Shown: positions 1 to 22,683 of the stretch, piece by piece
Position numbering within the stretch: position 1 is the first letter of the stretch
Layout of the letters: every line of letters begins with the position of its first letter
Origin: a virus
Direction: 5' to 3' (one strand)
Length of the DNA stretch: 23,106 bases
IMG/VR virus record: IMGVR_UViG_3300046697_000223
Location: 1 to 23,106 of that record
Position numbers and translations under genes: made by a program
Notes under the pieces: model-generated
What the model saw: the letters and a program-made list of their open reading frames with translations, nothing else
Database searches by the model: none
What the model was told of the DNA's origin: nothing

Positions 1-1006
1 CAGTTCCACCATTAGCTAAGGCTACAATTCCTGTTACGTTAGCGGCCGTTCCGCTAGTACTTTGATTAAGTGTTGGAACATCTGCGGCTTGAATAGCACT
101 CATTGTTACATTGGTGTTATCTCCACGCAGGTAATATTTAGTAGTTACGGCTCCAGCAATAGCATTTAAAGCTAACTGCTGTGTTGTTTGTCCAGTCCCG
201 CCATTGGCAATTGCAACAGTTCCTGTTACGTTAGCGGCCGTACCACTAGTACTTTGATTAAGTGTTGGAACATCTGCGGCTTGAATAGCACTCATTGTTA
301 CATTGGTGTTATCTCCACGCAGGTAATATTTAGTAGTTACGGCTCCAGCAATAGCATTTAAAGCTAACTGCCGTGTTGTTTGTCCAGTCCCGCCATTGGC
401 AATTGCAACAGTTCCTGTTACGTTAGCGGCCGTACCACTAGTAGACTGGTTCAACGTTGGGACATCTGCGGCTTGTATGGCTGACATTGTTACATTGGTA
501 TTATCGCCACGTAAATAGTATTTAGTGGTGACTGCGCCAGCTAATGCGTTCATAGCTAATTGCGCTGTAGTCTGTCCAGTTCCTCCATTATTTATTGCTA
601 TTGGGTAAGACACAGATGGAATAGCGCCATATACATCAGATAAGGCAGTATTTATACTAGCAGATCCTGCAGTTTTAGGATCGGTTACCGTGCATGTTCC
701 AATACCAACAGCCGGTAAAGTCGTGGCCATCGATGGAACGCCAGCAACGCTACTAATTAATACAGCTGAGTTTACAGGGGTTATAAATGACGTAACATTA
801 GCTGCTGTTTGATATGGGATATCGTTAGCTATACCACCAACTATATCTGCTGCATAAGCGGCGGAACTAGTAGAATTAATATAATTTATCTGTCCTTGTA
901 AGTTTTGTGCTACAACCTGGCCATCATTACCCGCCGCTATAGCAGTATTACTTGGCGTTACTGTTGCCGTAAGTTTAACTTGGTTTAAATATTTAGTATT
1001 AGCCAT
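1..1006 (-). CDS. Tail fibre protein with tandem 64-residue repeats (partial, 3' end outside window)
   Basis: An open frame starts at an ATG at 1006 and has no stop before the left edge (335 codons seen), so the C-terminus is missing. The N-terminal ~40 residues (MANTKYLNQVKLTATVTPSN) resemble the start of the next gene upstream, suggesting a shared attachment region. From about residue 135 the protein carries repeats of a 64-residue unit. Each has a GGTGQTT motif, then LRGDNTN, then SAIQAADVPTLNQ. GGTGxTT repeats are common in phage tail fibres, and the position after the ejection proteins fits a receptor-binding role. The unit DPKTAGSASINTALSDVYGAI recurs in two neighbouring tail genes. The start lies 2 bp after the previous stop, so translation is probably coupled. 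Fibre function is well supported; receptor and full length are unknown. Confidence 0.8.
   Translation of the reverse strand, partial: MANTKYLNQVKLTATVTPSNTAIAAGNDGQVVAQNLQGQINYINSTSSAAYAADIVGGIANDIPYQTAANVTSFITPVNSAVLISSVAGVPSMATTLPAVGIGTCTVTDPKTAGSASINTALSDVYGAIPSVSYPIAINNGGTGQTTAQLAMNALAGAVTTKYYLRGDNTNVTMSAIQAADVPTLNQSTSGTAANVTGTVAIANGGTGQTTRQLALNAIAGAVTTKYYLRGDNTNVTMSAIQAADVPTLNQSTSGTAANVTGTVAIANGGTGQTTQQLALNAIAGAVTTKYYLRGDNTNVTMSAIQAADVPTLNQSTSGTAANVTGIVALANGGT
31..606. repeat. 192-bp tandem coding repeats in tail fibre gene
   Basis: Three consecutive 192-bp units begin at about 31, 223 and 415; the third is cut to its coding equivalent. Units 1 and 2 differ at only a few bases (for example Q versus R at one codon), whereas unit 3 encodes nearly the same peptide with many synonymous differences. 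The period is exactly 64 codons, so unit gain or loss keeps the frame. Confidence 0.92.
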
Positions 1007-11574: not shown

Positions 11575-12222
11575 TCAAGTTATTAAATTGTTAATATCAT
11601 TTAAAGATTTGTTAGCTTTCTTAACAGCCTCTCTTTTAATAGCTGCCTTCCTATATCTTTCGATAGATTCAGGACTACGTACTTTACCTAAAGCATTCTT
11701 ATTACCAGTAGATCCAGCCCTAAGTTTTTCTTTTGTCTCAGAACTAACTTTATGACCAACAAGACTAGCAGTAATCTTAGCCTTATGCTCTTCGCTAAGC
11801 GTTTTACCTGTGTGAGCAATGCTAAGTTTGGCTTTGTGATCATCGCTAAGAGTTCGTCCTAAATTATATGTGTTACCTTTATGTAACTCACTAATTCTAG
11901 ACTTAGCCTCATCGTTAACAATCCAGCCCTTGCCTCTACCTTTATTATGCTTATCTTGCTGATTATCAGCATTGGTACCAATCCAGAGATGTGCAGGATT
12001 TACACACCAAGGATTATCACATTTATGACATACAAACATTCCATCTGGAATCTCACCAACATAAAGTTCATAAGATATTCTATGAGCTCTATACCGATTA
12101 TTATCTGTATAAAATGTACCGTAACCCTTTTCTGTCTTGGCACCAGTCCAAACCCAACAACCATCTTTAGGGAGTCTGTGAATCTTGCCTTCAAAATCTA
12201 ATCTATTTATATTTTTTATCAT
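11575..12222 (-). CDS. Free-standing HNH homing endonuclease with NUMOD3 repeats
   Basis: Using the ATG at 12222 gives 215 residues; a TTG at 12258 could add 12, and neither start has a strong Shine-Dalgarno. An HNH_3-type nuclease core spans residues ~21-90: CWVWTGAKTEKGYG, then YRAHRISYELYVGEIPDG, then VCHKCDNPWCVNPAHLWIGT, with the His, Asn and metal-binding Cys/His expected for this family. Three NUMOD3-type DNA-binding repeats follow (~113-160: GRTLSDDHKAKLSIAHTGKT, SEEHKAKITASLVGH, SSETKEKLRAGSTG). The tail is lysine-rich. Such genes spread by cutting unoccupied sites, here presumably near the coat-gene end in related phages. It is inserted between the coat and decoration genes without disrupting either. 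It is not needed for virion assembly. Confidence 0.9.
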   Translation of the reverse strand: MIKNINRLDFEGKIHRLPKDGCWVWTGAKTEKGYGTFYTDNNRYRAHRISYELYVGEIPDGMFVCHKCDNPWCVNPAHLWIGTNADNQQDKHNKGRGKGWIVNDEAKSRISELHKGNTYNLGRTLSDDHKAKLSIAHTGKTLSEEHKAKITASLVGHKVSSETKEKLRAGSTGNKNALGKVRSPESIERYRKAAIKREAVKKANKSLNDINNLIT

Positions 12223-12270
12223 AAATTGCAAAATACCATGGGGCAATTTATGAGTCAATATCTATCACTA

Positions 12271-13626
12271 CTATGCCGATGCAACGTTACCAGTTAAGGG
12301 CAAACAGAAACGTTGGCTATATCTTGATAATAACAATCCGCCCCATATGACGTCATTCACCAACCACTTTTTATTTTGTCCGAATACAGCACCATAATAC
12401 ATACGTAACGATACTTTAGTTTCATCGTCGGTATCTACTGATGTGGTAAATGGGTGTTCATTATCTAATCTCGGTACGGCTATGTAAAATGCTTTGCTAC
12501 AGATCCTAAGTCCACAACGATGCGATCCAACGAATTGTACAGTCATACCAGCTTGAATTGTTCCGCTAATATTCTGCAATGCATTACCGACTACACTACA
12601 TAAGCCTTGGCCTTCTGTATGAGTATTAGTAATAATATTTACTACTACAGCACCAGCATTAGAAGAAGCATCAGCAATTACACGGAATTGAACTGGCTGA
12701 TTAGTCTGCATGTGACCATAAAAAGTTAATGCATTAATGTTGGAAGCAGGTAGGAACCAACCCATATCACCAGCAGCAACAGCGATAGAATGACTACCAC
12801 CACCACTAGACAATGTTAACTGTGTTACGTTAGTACCAGTTGGATCGTTAGTGCTTACAACTGTACAAACCGTGCCAGCAACACCGAAAGCACCAGCGAT
12901 TTGAACAGGCAAGTAGTTTGATCTGTAGTATTTAGTACGAGGTGAACCAAATTCACCGACTAACCAACTTTGCGCGGCCTCATCATTACGGATCGGTACG
13001 AATTGGTTTAAGCCTGATCCAATAATTGGGGAATAATAGTTAGTAGGTAATACGACACAATGATCATCGTTAGGTGCGCCCATAGAAATAAAATCTGACA
13101 TGCTCTGATCTAAAGCTTGGTAGCTTAAAAGGCCTGTAGCGGTGCAATCAACGAAACGAGTTGGTCCGGAAAGATATTGTTCTTGACCATAAGTTGGGGA
13201 ATCTAGGCGCATATCGATCGCAGAAGAGTTAACATGCATAGCAATAGATTGCTCAACCTTGCTTCCTAATTCTGAAATCATACCCTTACCGATCATTTTC
13301 CAGAAACCATCATGATTCGTATTGAAAATTCTTTGTTGGTTTGTAACTGCAATAGCGACGTTTGCGGCAGAGATAACAGAAAGGTGAGCAATGTTCTGAC
13401 GAACTGGTTGAGCCGATACTATGAGCCCAGCGTTAGCAACACTAGCCATTGGCAAAGCGATTGCAATGGTATCACCTAAATTTGCAGGTGTCTTTTTTTC
13501 GAAATCAACAAATTCATGATTGCAAATGTCTGATATAAAACAGTTTTGGTTCAAAAATCCAGGTAATTGTGCATCAGCGTTATACGTCCTTACTTGCTGC
13601 AAAAAATTAATCGTAGGGTTAGACAT
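12271..13626 (-). CDS. Major capsid (coat) protein, P22-like
   Basis: A 451-residue protein, close to the 430 of P22 coat. The N-terminus reads MSNPTINFLQQVRTYNADAQ and goes on with KTPANLGDTIAIALP, then NIAHLSVISAANVAIAVTNQ, a layout like P22-type HK97-fold coat proteins. The gene order scaffold-coat-(decoration)-gp4-gp10 supports it. A strong Shine-Dalgarno (GAGG, 8 nt before the ATG) fits high expression. An extra domain is likely in the centre (residues ~240-330, beta-rich, GTNVTQLTLSSGGGSHSI), as in P22 coat with its I-domain, though this is not shown by sequence alone. Forms the icosahedral shell on the scaffold. Confidence 0.8.
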   Translation of the reverse strand: MSNPTINFLQQVRTYNADAQLPGFLNQNCFISDICNHEFVDFEKKTPANLGDTIAIALPMASVANAGLIVSAQPVRQNIAHLSVISAANVAIAVTNQQRIFNTNHDGFWKMIGKGMISELGSKVEQSIAMHVNSSAIDMRLDSPTYGQEQYLSGPTRFVDCTATGLLSYQALDQSMSDFISMGAPNDDHCVVLPTNYYSPIIGSGLNQFVPIRNDEAAQSWLVGEFGSPRTKYYRSNYLPVQIAGAFGVAGTVCTVVSTNDPTGTNVTQLTLSSGGGSHSIAVAAGDMGWFLPASNINALTFYGHMQTNQPVQFRVIADASSNAGAVVVNIITNTHTEGQGLCSVVGNALQNISGTIQAGMTVQFVGSHRCGLRICSKAFYIAVPRLDNEHPFTTSVDTDDETKVSLRMYYGAVFGQNKKWLVNDVIWGGLLLSRYSQRFCLPLTGNVASA

Positions 13627-15197: not shown

Positions 15198-15292
15198 ACT
15201 ATTGGGTTTGCCCCAACTACTATTGGGTTTGCCCCAGCTTTTTTACTCCAACTATTGGGTTTGCCCCAACTACTATTGGGTTTGCCCCAGCT
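15198..15292 (+). repeat. Four 21-bp iterons in two tandem pairs (replication origin)
   Basis: Copies at 15198-15218, 15219-15239, 15251-15271 and 15272-15292 share the core TATTGGGTTTGCCCCA and alternate in ending AACT or AGCT. Period within a pair is 21 bp (two helical turns); the pairs are 53 bp apart. The core is a partial dyad (TTGGG...CCCCA). Location just upstream of rep fits binding sites for the Rep initiator, for both replication and copy control. Confidence 0.9.
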
Positions 15293-15397: not shown

Positions 15398-16219
15398 ATG
15401 CAAAATGATAAAAAAGTAATAAAGGTGGCGGTAGTGTCAAATTTAGTAGCAGAAGCAAAACAGGCAAGACCATATAGCGTTCAAGAGCAAAGATTGTTGT
15501 TATGGATATTAAGCCAAACACACGAAGATGATTGGTTTAAAGGCGGTGAGTATATTGAAGACGGTATTTATCTTGGAAAAGAAATATCTATTTCAGGTAA
15601 AGAATATATCAAAGATATGAATTTAGATATCAAAGATATGCCAAAAGAAATATACAAGGTATGCCTGAGTCTATCAGAAAGAGTAATACATATAAGACAG
15701 AAAGAAGAATGGATTATGGTACATTGGTTTTATAGTATATCTTACAGTGAAATTGATCACATGATTAAGTTCAAGCTTCATCCTGAAATAATACCACATA
15801 TTTTTTCATTAAAATCTAATTTTACCCAACTGGAAATATCATATATTTTTAAACTAGAATCAATGTATGCAATAAGGCTTTATATGATTTTAGCTTGTAA
15901 TAAAAAATATGGTAAAACTTTTACACTCGATAGATTTAAAGACATGATGGGAATAAAAGATAAGAAGACCTATAGGTTATACGGAAATATAAAACAAGAA
16001 GTATTAAATATAGCAAAAAAAGAAATAAATGAAAAAACTGATATACAATTTGATTATGAAGAGAACAAAGCCGGTAGGGAAGTTGTATCACTGAAGTTTA
16101 AAGTATTTAAAGGGAAGAGAATAAATAGTAAATCAATAAGATATAAAGACGAAATCAAAAGAATAAAAGCTCCATTATGCGATGAAGCTAAAAAATTCTT
16201 TGGTAGGGTAAAAAAATAA
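15398..16219 (+). CDS. rep: Rep_3-family plasmid replication initiator
   Basis: A 273-residue protein of the Rep_3 (RepB/RepE/Pi-like) family, which binds iterons and opens the origin for theta replication. It has the tandem winged-helix layout: YSVQEQRLLLWILSQT near residues 26-41; FTQLEISYIFKLESMYAIRL at 142-161, the classic start of the second winged helix; FTLDRFKDMMGI at 175-186; then VLNIAKKEINEKTDIQFDYE at 202-221. Length is usual for the family. Shine-Dalgarno GAAGGGA lies 6-7 nt before the ATG. It is on the plus strand, opposite to all late genes, with iterons directly upstream. Confident in family; copy number and host range unknown. Confidence 0.95.
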   Translation: MQNDKKVIKVAVVSNLVAEAKQARPYSVQEQRLLLWILSQTHEDDWFKGGEYIEDGIYLGKEISISGKEYIKDMNLDIKDMPKEIYKVCLSLSERVIHIRQKEEWIMVHWFYSISYSEIDHMIKFKLHPEIIPHIFSLKSNFTQLEISYIFKLESMYAIRLYMILACNKKYGKTFTLDRFKDMMGIKDKKTYRLYGNIKQEVLNIAKKEINEKTDIQFDYEENKAGREVVSLKFKVFKGKRINSKSIRYKDEIKRIKAPLCDEAKKFFGRVKK

Positions 16220-16817: not shown

Positions 16818-18989
16818 TTATTCATTAGTAAAATGTGGCTCGCCAGTTGGGCGATGTCCTGTACTTATCTTATGCATCAACTCATGTTGTTTTAATCCAT
16901 GCTCTGCGTGGTCTTTTGCATGCCGATGGTTCATGTCAGTCGCAGCATGTGCTTTATCAATTATAACTCGCGCCATATCTGCGTCATTCTTTTCTTGCTG
17001 AAGAGCCATGTAACCTTCTTCTGTCTGAGTCTTGGCTATTAACTCAACTCTCTTTAGGGCTAATTCCTCCTGTGCTAGATTTAACTTTGCCTCTTCAAGT
17101 TTAGCCTGCATCTCGTATTTTTGAGCTTCAATTTGATTTTGTTGCCCCTTCATTTGTATTTCATCCTGATGGTTTTTTTCTCGCATCATAATTGGATTTG
17201 GCTGAGGGTTTTGTTGTGCTTGCATGGCCTGTTGTTTCTGCTGCTCAAGTTCTTGCATAAATTGCGCAGCCAAAAGTTTAAGCTGATCCTGGCCCTTCAT
17301 ATCGATATTATCGATCAATACTTTCAATCCTTTGGTATTTATGAACTGGCTGAATACTTGAGAAGCCTGACTCAACTGTATTATCTGCTGAAGTGCTTGA
17401 GTTTTTTGCGCTATAAAAGATGTACCGGCCTCTACCTTAATGTTGAAAGTGTTGTCTTCATATTTTAAAGAAGGCTGACCTTCACCATTAACCGGATGAT
17501 ATTGTTGATTACCTTCTTTGTCGATCATGGGAATTGACATAGGAGCAACATAAACTTTAGGAATAAGACCTAATATTATCTTTGCTACTTGGTTAAGACT
17601 TAGAATATATCGGTTTATAAATGGTTTTGCAGTTGCACTACTGTGAATAGCCCCTTGAACTATAGCCGCACCGGATAGATTGTTGCCACCATTGATACCA
17701 AGTTGGCTATCATAACTACCCAATATGTTTTGGAACACCTGAGGAAGGCTAGACCATAATGCCAACATCTCAGGAGGAAAAGCGTTTCTAGCCATCTGTT
17801 GTGGGGGTGGATTAGGTTTGTCTGGGTTATTATTGTTAAAAGCTCTATATACTAACGTATCATACTGCTGAGGTTCGGTAATATGATGTACATAATTAGG
17901 ATCAATTGACTCAGATGCTATAAGTATCTTATGCCTGCTTAAATTCTGACATTCATCTGCAAGAGCCGCTCCTAGATTATTAAATAATTTCTGCACACCT
18001 ATACAGTTCATTAGATATGGGCGTGTCATCTGCTCGGATTTAGATCCGCCATCACTTAGAACAACCGAACTGCCATCAAACCAAACCAAAGGAAGTGAAT
18101 CAGAGGTATCTATCTCTTCTTTACTAAGAATCGTATTACCGATCAATTGATATCTAATTATCTTAGTGGTATCCACTTCTCTTTCATTAATAATCACGGG
18201 CGCAGCTTCTAGCGAGTTAAGAATTTTCTCTTCTATTAAAGTTGCATATTGTTTCTTCTCGATCACTTCACCCGTAGATAGTTCCACAATCTTGATCTTT
18301 TTTTGTTGTTTTTCATAATAATCTGCCACTACCACAACCTCCATATCATGAATTTTGAAAAACCAACTAAATTTTTCTTGATTACTAAACACAACGTCTT
18401 TAATTTTATGATCAAACATTTTCTCAAATTTTTCTTTGCTGTATGGGAATAACTCGAAACAGTACTCACTATCAGATTTGCTAGGTTCTCTAGATAATGG
18501 GTCAAATCCTGTTAAAGTTGGATCGTACGACTTCGCCCAAACTATTTTTTGTTTAAATGTTTTACCTTCATCGTACTTAGCGTAAACCTTGGCTGCGCTG
18601 AAGCCGCCACTTGTGATTTCGTCCCATAACGATGTTTGGGTGCCATTTCTTGACGCTTCATCCATTACAAACCTAACATAACCTTCAATAAGCTCGCGTT
18701 GCTGTTCTATCTCTGGGGTGACATTAACGCCGTCTTGAATACTTACCATGATGCCAGGTTGTTGTTCAGCAAACTCACCGCGAAGTCTGGATAAAAATGC
18801 CTCAGATAGATTAAATTCTAGGATAGGAATATTAAGCGCAGATAATGAATTTTTAGCCTTGGTAGATAAGGTAGATTTGAATACGAACTCCCTGGAGGTG
18901 CGATATCTTTCGATATTATTCCAATTAGTTTCCATCGATAATTCTACGTTTTTAGTTATTCTAAGAATATCATCTTTATCGGTTTTCAT
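16818..18989 (-). CDS. Portal protein, P22 gp1-like
   Basis: A 723-residue protein, nearly the same length as P22 portal (725). The N-terminus (NWNNIERYRTSREFVFKSTL) and the segment FNLSEAFLSRLRGEFAEQQP fit the P22-type portal family. The C-terminal ~170 residues are Gln/Glu/Lys-rich and helical (ELEQQKQQAMQAQQNPQPNP onward, then AKLEEAKLNLAQEELALKRV), like the long helical barrel of P22 portal that reaches into the head. The last ~30 residues are His-rich (HRHAKDHAEHGLKQHELMHK), which is unusual. It forms the dodecameric ring through which DNA enters and leaves. It lies downstream of the large terminase across a 98-bp gap that carries parS. Confidence 0.85.
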   Translation of the reverse strand: MKTDKDDILRITKNVELSMETNWNNIERYRTSREFVFKSTLSTKAKNSLSALNIPILEFNLSEAFLSRLRGEFAEQQPGIMVSIQDGVNVTPEIEQQRELIEGYVRFVMDEASRNGTQTSLWDEITSGGFSAAKVYAKYDEGKTFKQKIVWAKSYDPTLTGFDPLSREPSKSDSEYCFELFPYSKEKFEKMFDHKIKDVVFSNQEKFSWFFKIHDMEVVVVADYYEKQQKKIKIVELSTGEVIEKKQYATLIEEKILNSLEAAPVIINEREVDTTKIIRYQLIGNTILSKEEIDTSDSLPLVWFDGSSVVLSDGGSKSEQMTRPYLMNCIGVQKLFNNLGAALADECQNLSRHKILIASESIDPNYVHHITEPQQYDTLVYRAFNNNNPDKPNPPPQQMARNAFPPEMLALWSSLPQVFQNILGSYDSQLGINGGNNLSGAAIVQGAIHSSATAKPFINRYILSLNQVAKIILGLIPKVYVAPMSIPMIDKEGNQQYHPVNGEGQPSLKYEDNTFNIKVEAGTSFIAQKTQALQQIIQLSQASQVFSQFINTKGLKVLIDNIDMKGQDQLKLLAAQFMQELEQQKQQAMQAQQNPQPNPIMMREKNHQDEIQMKGQQNQIEAQKYEMQAKLEEAKLNLAQEELALKRVELIAKTQTEEGYMALQQEKNDADMARVIIDKAHAATDMNHRHAKDHAEHGLKQHELMHKISTGHRPTGEPHFTNE

Positions 18990-19059
18990 ATCTTGACTTT
19001 TGGATTTGTTAAGTTTTTCTTAATTTTCCGCTAGTTCTATGATATTTGCAAGTTATTAT

Positions 19060-19075
19060 AGTTTCACGTGAAACA
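19060..19075. promoter_or_regulatory. parS centromere-like site (ParB binding)
   Basis: AGTTTCACGTGAAACA contains the perfect 14-bp palindrome GTTTCACGTGAAAC. It matches the conserved bacterial chromosomal parS consensus TGTTNCACGTGAAACA at 15 of 16 positions; only the first T is an A. It lies in the gap between the large terminase and portal genes. ParB proteins load at such sites and ParA moves them to daughter cells. No parA or parB is in this window. Confidence 0.8.
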
Positions 19076-19087
19076 TAAAACTATTTA

Positions 19088-20638
19088 TCACCATCTATTT
19101 ATTCTGTCATTAGCTACATTAATCTGCGATCGAAGTATTTTATCTGCTTGATCTTTATTATTAACTTGAGCATTACTCATCAAATATAAAGCAGTTTTAT
19201 CAATAAATGTCATACGAACAGCATCAAATACTGAGTCGACAATATCCGAACGGCGCTGTGTTCCGGCTGCATTTATTTTTATCATATGCTCTATACACAT
19301 CTTAGTATGAGGAGCGCCATAAGGTAATGATATTAATTTTTGACTTATATATTGCTGCATAGATATATGACGATTTATCTTGCTTCCGCTCGCAGATGTT
19401 CTATCTACCGAGATTACATTCAGTCCTTGGATAGTTTCTAATACGCTAATTAATGTCACGCCCGTGCTTTTCTTTTCTATGGCTGCGAATGCAGGTATTT
19501 TAACCGAACATGCAGAGGCATAAAATTGCATAAACTCCGCCTGTAAGTCTTTAGGCTGTACAAATATTTCTACGCAGTTGAGCCAATGCAAACCATATAA
19601 ATCGGTTTCTTTTCCAAAATGTTCTATGCGATATATACCCCATAGGCTAAATACAGTGGCATCGTTATACGTTTTATCCGTCTCGGCAGTATCAGCGGTA
19701 ATAAACGTCATTAAAATATTTGGCATTTTTTCTAAAACAGGGAAATGCTCGGATTTGAATAAAGATGCAGTATCTCCGGTAGGGTTTTGTTGATATTGGC
19801 ACTCAAAGACAAAAGGTTGCAGCTCTCTTAAGTTTCTCAGTTCTTGAATATTCATCAATTGAGGGCAAATAGGGTTATTGGAGGAATCTATAGCTGGTAA
19901 TATTACCGTATCCCATCCGCCTTGAGTGATAAGATGGCCCGGCAAATCATCCTCATGTATTCTTTGGCCTATAATGCAAATGCCCGTTCTTTCTGCGTCA
20001 TTCCTTCTGCTTTGCAAAGTGTTATAATACCAATTCTTTATACCTTCTCTAACAACCTGACTTGAAGCTTCGCTTGGCTTGCCAATATCGTCTACAACTA
20101 AAATTCCCCCAAAGCGATCACAATTAAAGATACCGGCTGCCCTACCTGTTATCGTGCCGCCAGCCCCCACCGCAATTACAGAACCTCCAGCAGTTGTTAT
20201 AAATGCATCTTTGGCTTGAGAATCGTCTCTAAGTTCCACGCCAAACATTTTTTTATAGTATGGAGTAGATATTATTTGCTTTATTTCAGCAGTAGCAAGA
20301 CAAGCTAAATCATGAGAATAGGAAACATATAAAAAATTACAATCTGGATATCTGGCTAAACTCCACGCTATAAAATTCATCAATAAAGTTGTTTTACCCA
20401 TTCTTGGGGGCACATTTATTATGGTTTTAAATGATTTTCTTTCAAATAATTTATATAAAGCTTTTGCTATAATCGCATAGTGATTTTCACGTCCTATAGG
20501 ATTTCCCAAAACAAAATCCCTCCCTGTTCTAAGCTTATAAAATACACGCGTGAAAGCTAGTAAATCATCAAGCAACTCAGCCTTTACACTAGCCGCTAAT
20601 AATATCTCCTCGTCACTCATCCTAACTTCACTTGCCAT
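19088..20638 (-). CDS. terL: Terminase large subunit (ATPase/nuclease)
   Basis: A 516-residue packaging motor protein. Walker A is PPRMGKTT (77-84), and Walker B is ILVVDD (179-184) followed by IGKP. The RNase H-like nuclease acidic residues are visible at D316 (FITADTAETD), E388 (AAIEKK) and D465/D468 (RRSDIVDS). It cuts concatemers and drives DNA into the head through the portal. The gene overlaps the upstream zinc-ribbon gene by 11 bp; a second in-frame ATG at 20620 is possible. The small terminase is three genes upstream, with two small zinc-ribbon genes between. Confident. Confidence 0.93.
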   Translation of the reverse strand: MASEVRMSDEEILLAASVKAELLDDLLAFTRVFYKLRTGRDFVLGNPIGRENHYAIIAKALYKLFERKSFKTIINVPPRMGKTTLLMNFIAWSLARYPDCNFLYVSYSHDLACLATAEIKQIISTPYYKKMFGVELRDDSQAKDAFITTAGGSVIAVGAGGTITGRAAGIFNCDRFGGILVVDDIGKPSEASSQVVREGIKNWYYNTLQSRRNDAERTGICIIGQRIHEDDLPGHLITQGGWDTVILPAIDSSNNPICPQLMNIQELRNLRELQPFVFECQYQQNPTGDTASLFKSEHFPVLEKMPNILMTFITADTAETDKTYNDATVFSLWGIYRIEHFGKETDLYGLHWLNCVEIFVQPKDLQAEFMQFYASACSVKIPAFAAIEKKSTGVTLISVLETIQGLNVISVDRTSASGSKINRHISMQQYISQKLISLPYGAPHTKMCIEHMIKINAAGTQRRSDIVDSVFDAVRMTFIDKTALYLMSNAQVNNKDQADKILRSQINVANDRINRW

Positions 20639-20927: not shown

Positions 20928-21235
20928 TTTTTCCCCTTCTTCTTTCTATTGGCGGCTATATCCCTTACTCTTTCTAGGATCTTATCTCTAGAATTGCCTA
21001 AGTGTAGTGGTTTAGATTCTTTTGGCTCGTCTATGATAATGACTTCCTGATCTTTTTCTTTTTCTACAATATTCCTATACAAGTCGCATAGGTAATCATT
21101 AGTTTTTATATTTTCAGATATCGAAGATTGTGCAGGGAAACAAGCGGGACACCTAATTCTCATTCCGTTTGTGGTGCTAACCATCGTTGAACCACCGCAT
21201 AGTGAGCATTTACTTGTGTTCGATAGCTCTGACAT
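20924..21235 (-). CDS. Small zinc-ribbon protein A (103 aa)
   Basis: The frame opens at 21295, but the ATG at 21235 has a GAGG Shine-Dalgarno 8-9 nt upstream and gives 103 residues starting MSELSNTSKCSLCGGS. Cysteines C10, C13, C29 and C32 form CxxC-N15-CxxC (CSLCGG and CPACFP), the same spacing as the next gene. The C-terminus is lysine-rich (DIAANRKKKGKK). It overlaps the small-terminase gene by 26 bp and the next zinc-ribbon gene by 4 bp. Likely a nucleic-acid-binding accessory to packaging, by context; function not recognised. Confidence 0.65.
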   Translation of the reverse strand: MSELSNTSKCSLCGGSTMVSTTNGMRIRCPACFPAQSSISENIKTNDYLCDLYRNIVEKEKDQEVIIIDEPKESKPLHLGNSRDKILERVRDIAANRKKKGKK

Positions 21236-21947
21236 TTCTTTTTTCCTCAAGAATTTTAAAAGTAAGTTCGTTAATTTTTTGTATATCCGTATCATTGTTA
21301 AGTGTTGCTACTATTGTTGATGTTGGCGCGATATGACCTTGCATTGCATTAAGTTCTTTAATTGCCGCAATGGCCATGCCTCCATATTGTCTATCCACCT
21401 TTCCTTTTTTATCAATAACTGATTCCACTAAATTAACCAGTTTATTAACCTTCCATTCAAAAGTAGACCTTAAATCGTTTTCATACATATTTTGCTTTCC
21501 TTTTAAGTATCTCTGAACATTAGGTTTTTTAAAAGATGCGTATGCACTGCATTCAACATAACCAGCGGCTTGACTGGCTAACCTAATGTTCCCTAAAATT
21601 AAATATGCATCACACAATTTTTGTTGCATAGGAGTAATGAAACGCTCTGGCATCTCTTCTTGTAATAACTTTTTGTTATCATGTCTTAATTTTTTTACTA
21701 ACGTTTGTCTTTTTATGCGTATTTTTTCTAATTCTATAAGATCTTGCCCAGACATCCCTTTGCTTTTTAAATAATCCAAGGCATTAACACTAGATAAAAC
21801 TATACTTGGTCTCGCTATCGTATCTTTAGCATATCCCGCTTTCTTTACTGATAATCTAGCGTCTTTAGTTATCAAATAAAGATCACAGGCTTTTTTCTGC
21901 CTATCGTCAAATGGATGTTGTTTAGAAGTACATTTGATTTTGAACAT
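21210..21947 (-). CDS. terS: Terminase small subunit with two Terminase_2-type modules
   Basis: A 245-residue protein. Residues 105-151 (TPMQQKLCDAYLILGNIRLA, then SQAAGYVECSAYASF and PNVQRYL) match the small terminase DNA-binding module (TPxQxxFxxxYLxxxNxxxAAxxAGY...NPxVxxYL). A second, weaker copy lies at 15-63 (DRQKKACDLYLITKDARLSV, KKAGYAKDTI, ALDYLKSK). The C-terminal part is helical. It recognises packaging sites and recruits the large subunit. The position at the start of the packaging operon agrees. Duplication of the module is unusual. Confidence 0.82.
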   Translation of the reverse strand: MFKIKCTSKQHPFDDRQKKACDLYLITKDARLSVKKAGYAKDTIARPSIVLSSVNALDYLKSKGMSGQDLIELEKIRIKRQTLVKKLRHDNKKLLQEEMPERFITPMQQKLCDAYLILGNIRLASQAAGYVECSAYASFKKPNVQRYLKGKQNMYENDLRSTFEWKVNKLVNLVESVIDKKGKVDRQYGGMAIAAIKELNAMQGHIAPTSTIVATLNNDTDIQKINELTFKILEEKRNVRAIEHK

Positions 21948-22341: not shown

Positions 22342-22683
22342 TCATGGAGTGGTTGTAGAATTGGTGGGTATAGTTGAGTTTGTTACAGTAGTATTGGTAG
22401 TAAAATCACAACTCTGTTCTGCTGATGATAATGCAGCTAAAGCAAAACTAAAACAATTTAATACTAAACCACCTATACTAATAGTCATACCTATTACCCT
22501 TTGCTTGGCTGTCTGGGTTGCATCTCCAAGATTAGGGGCAGCAACATGAATTGATTGTCCCCATGCCTGCAATGCTGATCCTATGCCAACACAAATTGCA
22601 CTTGCTGTACTCAGAGCTGTCTTTGGACAATTTAAATCACCACCGTTTACGCATTCAATCTCTTTCTTGCTCAATGTTTTCAT
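22342..22683 (-). CDS. Class II microcin/bacteriocin-like peptide precursor with double-glycine leader
   Basis: A 113-residue protein. The leader MKTLSKKEIECVNGG (1-15) fits the double-glycine type cut and exported by C39-peptidase ABC transporters; microcin V has a similar leader. The predicted 98-residue mature part has four cysteines (19, 31, 77, 92), two apolar helices (~24-41 ALSTASAICVGIGSALQA and ~64-86, including MTISIGGLVLNCFSFALAAL), and a Thr/Ser/Asn-rich tail (TTNTTVTNSTIPTNSTTTP). Membrane-acting peptides of this class have this layout. It has its own strong promoter. No exporter or immunity gene is seen in the window. Alternative: a secreted non-toxic signal or effector using the same export route. 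Confidence 0.65.
   Translation of the reverse strand: MKTLSKKEIECVNGGDLNCPKTALSTASAICVGIGSALQAWGQSIHVAAPNLGDATQTAKQRVIGMTISIGGLVLNCFSFALAALSSAEQSCDFTTNTTVTNSTIPTNSTTTP

Follow-up and report, generated by a model that had tools for sequence, protein, structure and literature searches.

Chromosomal parS sites of the TGTTTCACGTGAAACA type occur in Bacillus subtilis and other bacteria, and P1 is one example of an extrachromosomal prophage that carries parABS. The consensus TGTTTCACGTGAAACA is the parS used in PMC10197239, whose relevant passages describe it as widely conserved in bacteria, and a 14-bp chromosomal parS is mentioned for S. coelicolor in passages of PMC13245405 that do not give its letters. 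Among phages, the passages of PMC7157519 that bear on the subject report extrachromosomal mycobacterial prophages with parABS and repeat-type centromeres of their own, while the corresponding parts of PMC10286716 assign to the Staphylococcus phage Lacachita group a ParB-like protein in the absence of ParA. Phage ParB proteins are among those included in a survey of the ParB fold, and the passages concerned leave bare parS sites untreated (PMC12704722). A full-text literature search, which considered the top-ranked matches and covered few subscription papers, gave no account of phages that have a host-type parS but lack parB. Here we analyse a parS of the chromosomal type in the late genes of a tailed phage that also encodes a Rep_3 plasmid replicon. 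The phage is represented by a linear fragment of 23,106 bp with a G+C content of 36.8% (IMG/VR record IMGVR_UViG_3300046697_000223), and this whole stretch is referred to below as the window.

The site reads AGTTTCACGTGAAACA and differs from the consensus TGTTTCACGTGAAACA at a single position (15/16), its core GTTTCACGTGAAAC being perfect (14/14), just as a sequence-only reading of this DNA had claimed. That reading had also placed the site between the genes for the large terminase (terL) and the portal protein and had considered a chance palindrome unlikely, and the analysis agreed with it on both counts. The site lies 13 bp past the terL stop (19088) and upstream of the portal start (18989), both genes being on the minus strand. 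Its core is the sole perfect 14-bp palindrome that the window contains, and Markov models of orders 1-3 with the window's own composition predict 1e-5 to 4e-5 occurrences of it there; for the 16-mer with at most one mismatch the expectation is 2e-4 (order-2 model). When up to three mismatches to the parS consensus were allowed, the same site was the single match in the window, compared with a mean of 0.10 matches in dinucleotide shuffles. The parS site is therefore confirmed as real and far beyond chance, and it is likely to be bound by host ParB. A terminator at this position was considered as well and rejected, since none was predicted.

Besides the site, the window holds a plasmid replication module, in which four perfect 17-bp iterons (CTATTGGGTTTGCCCCA), likely marking the origin, oriV, lie ahead of a gene for a Rep_3 initiator. 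Shuffles gave a mean of 0.06 iteron matches with at most three mismatches. Read from the sequence, Rep_3 and the four iterons are arranged as in the origin of an iteron plasmid. The initiator is related to proteins of the RepE/RepM type and matches replication initiators in the PDB (best E 8.2e-10), and its matches to the RepM and RepE models of NCBIfam fall under their cut-offs. Together with this module we found packaging and structural genes of a tailed phage, namely terL, terS, portal and a head-closure protein, the last also recognised in the Pfam and PHROG scans. None of the 25 window proteins scanned matched ParA or ParB (Pfam, E ≤0.001), which agrees with the earlier statement that the window lacks parAB, and no exact terminal repeats were found in the 23,106-bp record.

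The explanation that we favour, with a probability of roughly 0.47, is that the site works as a host-type parS and that the phage, at least partly a Rep_3 plasmid of low copy number, is segregated by the ParABS system of its host. For part of its cycle at least, the phage would be maintained as a plasmid by Rep_3 and the four iterons, presumably in few copies, and in the known part of the element there are no partition genes of its own. Host ParB would load on parS, close as a cytidine triphosphate (CTP) clamp and slide or spread over flanking DNA. Host ParA would move the resulting ParB-DNA complex, and the daughter copies would be shared out like the origin region of the host, so that the Rep_3 replicon would gain partition without any gene. 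While the site and the replicon were observed, we infer the host, the binding of ParB, the plasmid lifestyle and the segregation. According to a review (PMC7022226), otherwise unstable plasmids can be stabilised by chromosomal par operons that have one parS.

Occurrences of parS in phage DNA proved to be non-random. The exact 16-mer was present in at least 120 stretches of the IMG/VR viral_contigs, versus 1 and 5 stretches for two control palindromes matched in base composition; host-type parS is thus at least 24 times as frequent in viral DNA as the controls, and it is mostly intergenic. Grouping of 120 stretches with the exact 16-mer gave 53 clusters; with one member taken from each, its first site was intergenic in 31 clusters, versus 18% expected (p 7e-11). 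Of 186 core sites in 150 loci, 71 lay inside open frames of at least 100 aa, although such frames make up 81% of the DNA. Among the 120 stretches, 17 had two to five exact copies. Six stretches (L142, L169, L135, L176, L178 and L188) have three to five parS cores each, and the copies in L142 and L169 are situated within about 1.5 kb of terL. An iterated profile detected terL in 50 of 151 parS loci. No parS within two mismatches was present around terL in the isolate phages HTVC023P, CRP-901, MinM2, Lacachita, S-CBS2 and PHS21, and 023Pt_psg01 and DSL-LC04 had no parS. We give even odds to a broader proposition, in which many tailed phages carry a bare host-type parS and exploit the ParB clamp of the host; the window, with its site and Rep_3/iteron replicon, would be a case of phage-plasmid hitch-hiking on chromosomal ParABS, and in a terminase clade related to phage HTVC027P the sites would often be at the terminase locus.

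Several observations weigh against segregation of this phage by host ParABS, and they are gathered in this paragraph and the two that follow. Sites of the control palindromes were intergenic too in 3 of 6 cases. A run of late genes is an odd place for a centromere, because on plasmids ParB is capable of silencing the genes around parS, as passages of PMC7333895 indicate. A parAB pair may lie elsewhere on the element, which is possible because the record is an incomplete linear fragment. Lastly, none of 50 parS-bearing viral records yielded a Rep_3 match, so that Rep_3 was rejected as a general companion of phage parS; plasmid hitch-hiking is for this reason not the general explanation of phage parS, and maybe not the sole one here. 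The sequence-only reading had suggested hitch-hiking on the host ParABS, and this proposal stands in part. The beyond-chance site, the iteron origin, the same parS in one candidate host group and the lack of ParB among the window proteins scanned and in most parS-bearing records searched speak for it in this phage, and as a general explanation it did not hold.

Conservation is the next point. Among relatives collected by terL, portal and coat similarity, the exact 14-bp core was present in 1 of 92 records outside the same phage. This relative (L015) was found via its portal (32% similarity), independently of parS, and it carries the perfect 16-mer between the portal gene and a scaffold-like gene, 4e-4 exact 16-mers being expected over 101 relatives. 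Its site forms a 20-bp palindrome, behind which comes a T-rich stretch, and might also act as a terminator; a nearer relative of L015 (L263, coat 86%) has no site in the 21 kb examined. A search for GTTNCACGTGNAAC in 87 of the 92 relatives gave one further match, in L068, which has GTTCCACGTGGAAC. The closest relatives (terL 62-69%, coat near 80%) have no parS site, and in the parts examined of 13 related genome-assembly loci nothing came within two mismatches of the 16-mer; L270 is one mismatch away from GTTCCACGTGGAAC. The interval from terL to portal in the closest relatives is about 0.5-3.6 kb where it is readable, and the 98-bp gap is kept in none of them; as the gap itself is not conserved, the absence of the site from close relatives is uninformative as a test of its conservation. 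Some further members were found by the parS pattern itself. In L033 the parS falls within a portal-like coding region; L160 carries a pair of sites between portal and scaffold, the interval that holds the site of L015; and in L190, L202 and L016 only some genes match, weakly. The two copies in L160 flank a pair of small genes (L160:1886-2457), one of whose products (2155-2436) looks by eye like sigma-70 region 4. In this phage group parS is rare and scattered, yet commoner than chance.

The host is likewise indicated loosely. The coat profile matched 13 genome loci, of which two are from Legionella, with coat identities of 40% for a Legionella metagenome-assembled genome (MAG) and 38% for Legionella maceachernii, compared with 42% for Sulfuricurvum. 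The other 11 are contigs of MAGs or uncultured isolates from many phyla (including Bacteroidetes, Flavobacterium and a Thermoplasmata archaeon), some of them equally similar, and we suspect these to be mis-binned phage contigs. The closest coat locus (L260, CAIMCP010000014.1; 79%) is a 40.6-kb contig filed under Candidatus Saccharibacteria and is probably a mis-binned phage as well. Legionella is named as one host candidate, no more, because L. maceachernii is the sole cultured strain named among the coat loci. With at most one mismatch, parS was present in two of the four related-coat genomes searched and missing from the other two. The Legionella MAG has TGTTTCACGTGAAACA three times, adjoining parA, parB and an rsmG-like gene, plus a one-mismatch site elsewhere, and L. 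maceachernii has two one-mismatch copies, one of them adjoining recF/dnaN-like genes (neighbour genes were named by eye from their translations). Since the consensus is so widely conserved in bacteria, the ParB reading does not depend on the Legionella guess.

Because the site lies among late genes and Rep_3 was missing from the 50 parS-bearing records searched for it, the main rival is that host ParB does bind the site, in the service of the lytic cycle, either for DNA organisation or placement near the packaging locus (with or without SMC) or for control of late transcription. We regard this as possible and rather unlikely. It would suit a site so close behind terL, and it would also suit 14 other loci, mostly of one clade, in which parS precedes the terL frame by about 25-145 bp (L154, L144, L218, L208, L245, L222, L244, L236, L152, L226, L167, L213, L132 and L191). 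The flanks of these sites differ by eye, and terL in the 11 that were aligned is 65-91% identical to that of L154. In L222, GTTCCACGTGGAAC adjoins GTTTCACGTGAAAC. A scan for terL of the L154 type, restricted to the best 80 of at least 600 stretches, included 15 that had been picked for parS; among the remaining 65 clade members, GTTNCACGTGNAAC was present in six in the stretch examined, versus 0.018 expected. Five of these six are among 27 nearer members, four of which have fewer than 65 bases upstream, so that an upstream site could not show, and one is among 38 more distant members. One of the six (L285) is not independent, because it is 97% identical to the picked L222; another (L286) shares 81-82% DNA identity with picked loci, and the other four have no such match. 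Similarly, the isolate Pelagibacter phage HTVC027P (MN698241.1), whose terL shows 64% DNA identity to that of L154 over part of its length, has CGTTTCACGTGAAACA with the parS core in the gap between terS and terL (L249:1423-1438), and its whole record gave no ParB_N match. What speaks against a lytic role is that the positions of parS relative to terL vary widely and that, with one locus per terL clade, 4.7 of 12 clades had parS no more than 1.5 kb from terL, versus 6.5 of 12 for random positions. As this test shows no excess, the idea that parS and terL are linked in phages at large was rejected, and the association is clade-specific. A lytic role would also leave the plasmid replicon of this one phage unexplained.

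It is improbable that the site serves a ParAB pair of the element's own, encoded outside the record, with a parS that merely resembles the chromosomal one. Room for such genes may exist, as the records of several relatives reach 35-43 kb compared with 23.1 kb here, so that a third or more is possibly missing, and in the passages cited above the known extrachromosomal prophages do carry their own parABS (PMC7157519). The same passages describe the partition sites of mycobacteriophage RedRock as arrays of 8-bp repeats and not as chromosomal parS. Moreover, ParB_N was found in 0 of 32, 2 of 50 and 2 of 36 records in three sets that nearly all bear parS, the last set comprising longer records only. 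This amounts to 4 of 117 distinct records (three over the cut-off) and leaves 113 without a match, in a collection with many fragments and some contigs that may contain host DNA; it took in 84 of the at least 120 stretches with the exact 16-mer, as well as L068, which has a variant site only. The 1.7 kb that can be added to the left of the window (L256) is taken up for the most part by the remainder of a repetitive, tail-like protein of 826 aa. Slightly less probable still is a palindrome unrelated to ParB, be it a chance match or the operator of another regulator. The absence of the site from close relatives would fit this idea, as would a TATAAT that follows immediately after the palindrome on the minus strand; a promoter scan of the gap between terL and portal gave no excess over shuffles, however, and the low expectation for the core and the strong enrichment of the identical 16-mer in viral DNA, which the two near-identical palindromes do not share, argue against it.

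The main features of the window are listed below.

Features of the 23,106-bp window (positions as numbered in the window)
Feature	Position	Strand	Details
Chromosome-type parS	19060..19075	.	perfect 14-bp core GTTTCACGTGAAAC at 19061-19074
Non-coding gap, 98 bp, with parS	18990..19087	.	between terL and portal
Rep_3 plasmid replication initiator	15398..16219	+	PF01051, E 3.3e-24; PF21205, E 4.2e-19
Four 17-bp iterons, likely oriV	15199..15289	+	upstream of the Rep_3 gene
Terminase large subunit (terL)	19088..20638	-	PHROG 38, E 2.7e-74
P22-like portal protein	16818..18989	-	PF16510, E 2.9e-66
Terminase small subunit (terS)	21210..21947	-	PF03592, E 8.7e-9
Putative major coat protein	12271..13626	-	position after scaffold-like gene, and relatives; 41% identical to L015

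The putative coat protein has no Pfam or PHROG match. Two further records (L002 and L047) are the same phage as the window, with 100% identity in the matched proteins, and the part of L047 designated L256 adds 1,668 bp leftward. Whole-length searches of 46 relative records, many of them fragments, found no Rep_3, nor was it found in the 14 first relatives (an overlapping set, one being a piece of the same phage), and an integrase is present in 2 of the 46. Near-identical DNA was found neither in phages nor in plasmids, a portal homologue was not found in plasmids, and searches for RNA families and tRNAs gave no match. The tail-like protein, with long internal repeats (ANGGTGQTT...), occupies 2-1006 (minus strand) and is complete at L256:194-2674 (minus strand); its weak Pfam matches (4-1006) were under their cut-offs and were treated as noise. 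An HNH homing endonuclease gene (HNH_3, NUMOD3) is located at 11575-12258 (minus strand), with the coat-like gene on one side and the next late gene on the other. The small protein encoded at 22342-22683 (minus strand) has no Pfam, PHROG or NCBIfam match and a 39% match in L005, L006, L007 and L009, and its N-terminus MKTLSKKEIECVNGG resembles a double-glycine bacteriocin leader.

If segregation by host ParABS is true, a phage that brings only the host centromere would outsource partition entirely, unlike plasmid prophages with their own centromere and ParB. Its host range would be tied to the specificity of ParB, and it would compete with the chromosome for this protein. The viral parS collection is a large natural set for testing the action of ParB on phage genomes, and HTVC027P, as an isolated phage with a parS core, is a ready test case.

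Compared with known systems, the window shares its 14-bp core with chromosomal ParABS, and the 16-mer of the Legionella MAG equals that of the window except for the first base; unlike the chromosomal sites, the window site is on a phage element, within late genes and with no parAB among the proteins scanned. RedRock and Miko, going by the passages of PMC7157519, resemble the state proposed here in that a phage is kept as a plasmid with a centromere, and Miko also has RepA. They encode ParA and ParB and have their own centromere (the repeat arrays in RedRock), whereas the site of the window is of the host type and the record contains no par genes. The Lacachita group, as described in PMC10286716, resembles the window in its partial partition system and in that no integrase was found; that group encodes a ParB-like protein, and the window is the opposite case, in which the site is there and ParB is not. 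With the Rep_3 iteron plasmids (RepE, RepM, and Piscirickettsia plasmids at 31%) the window has in common the initiator family and the iterons upstream of rep, but its replicon, unlike theirs, belongs to a phage genome that encodes a P22-like portal.
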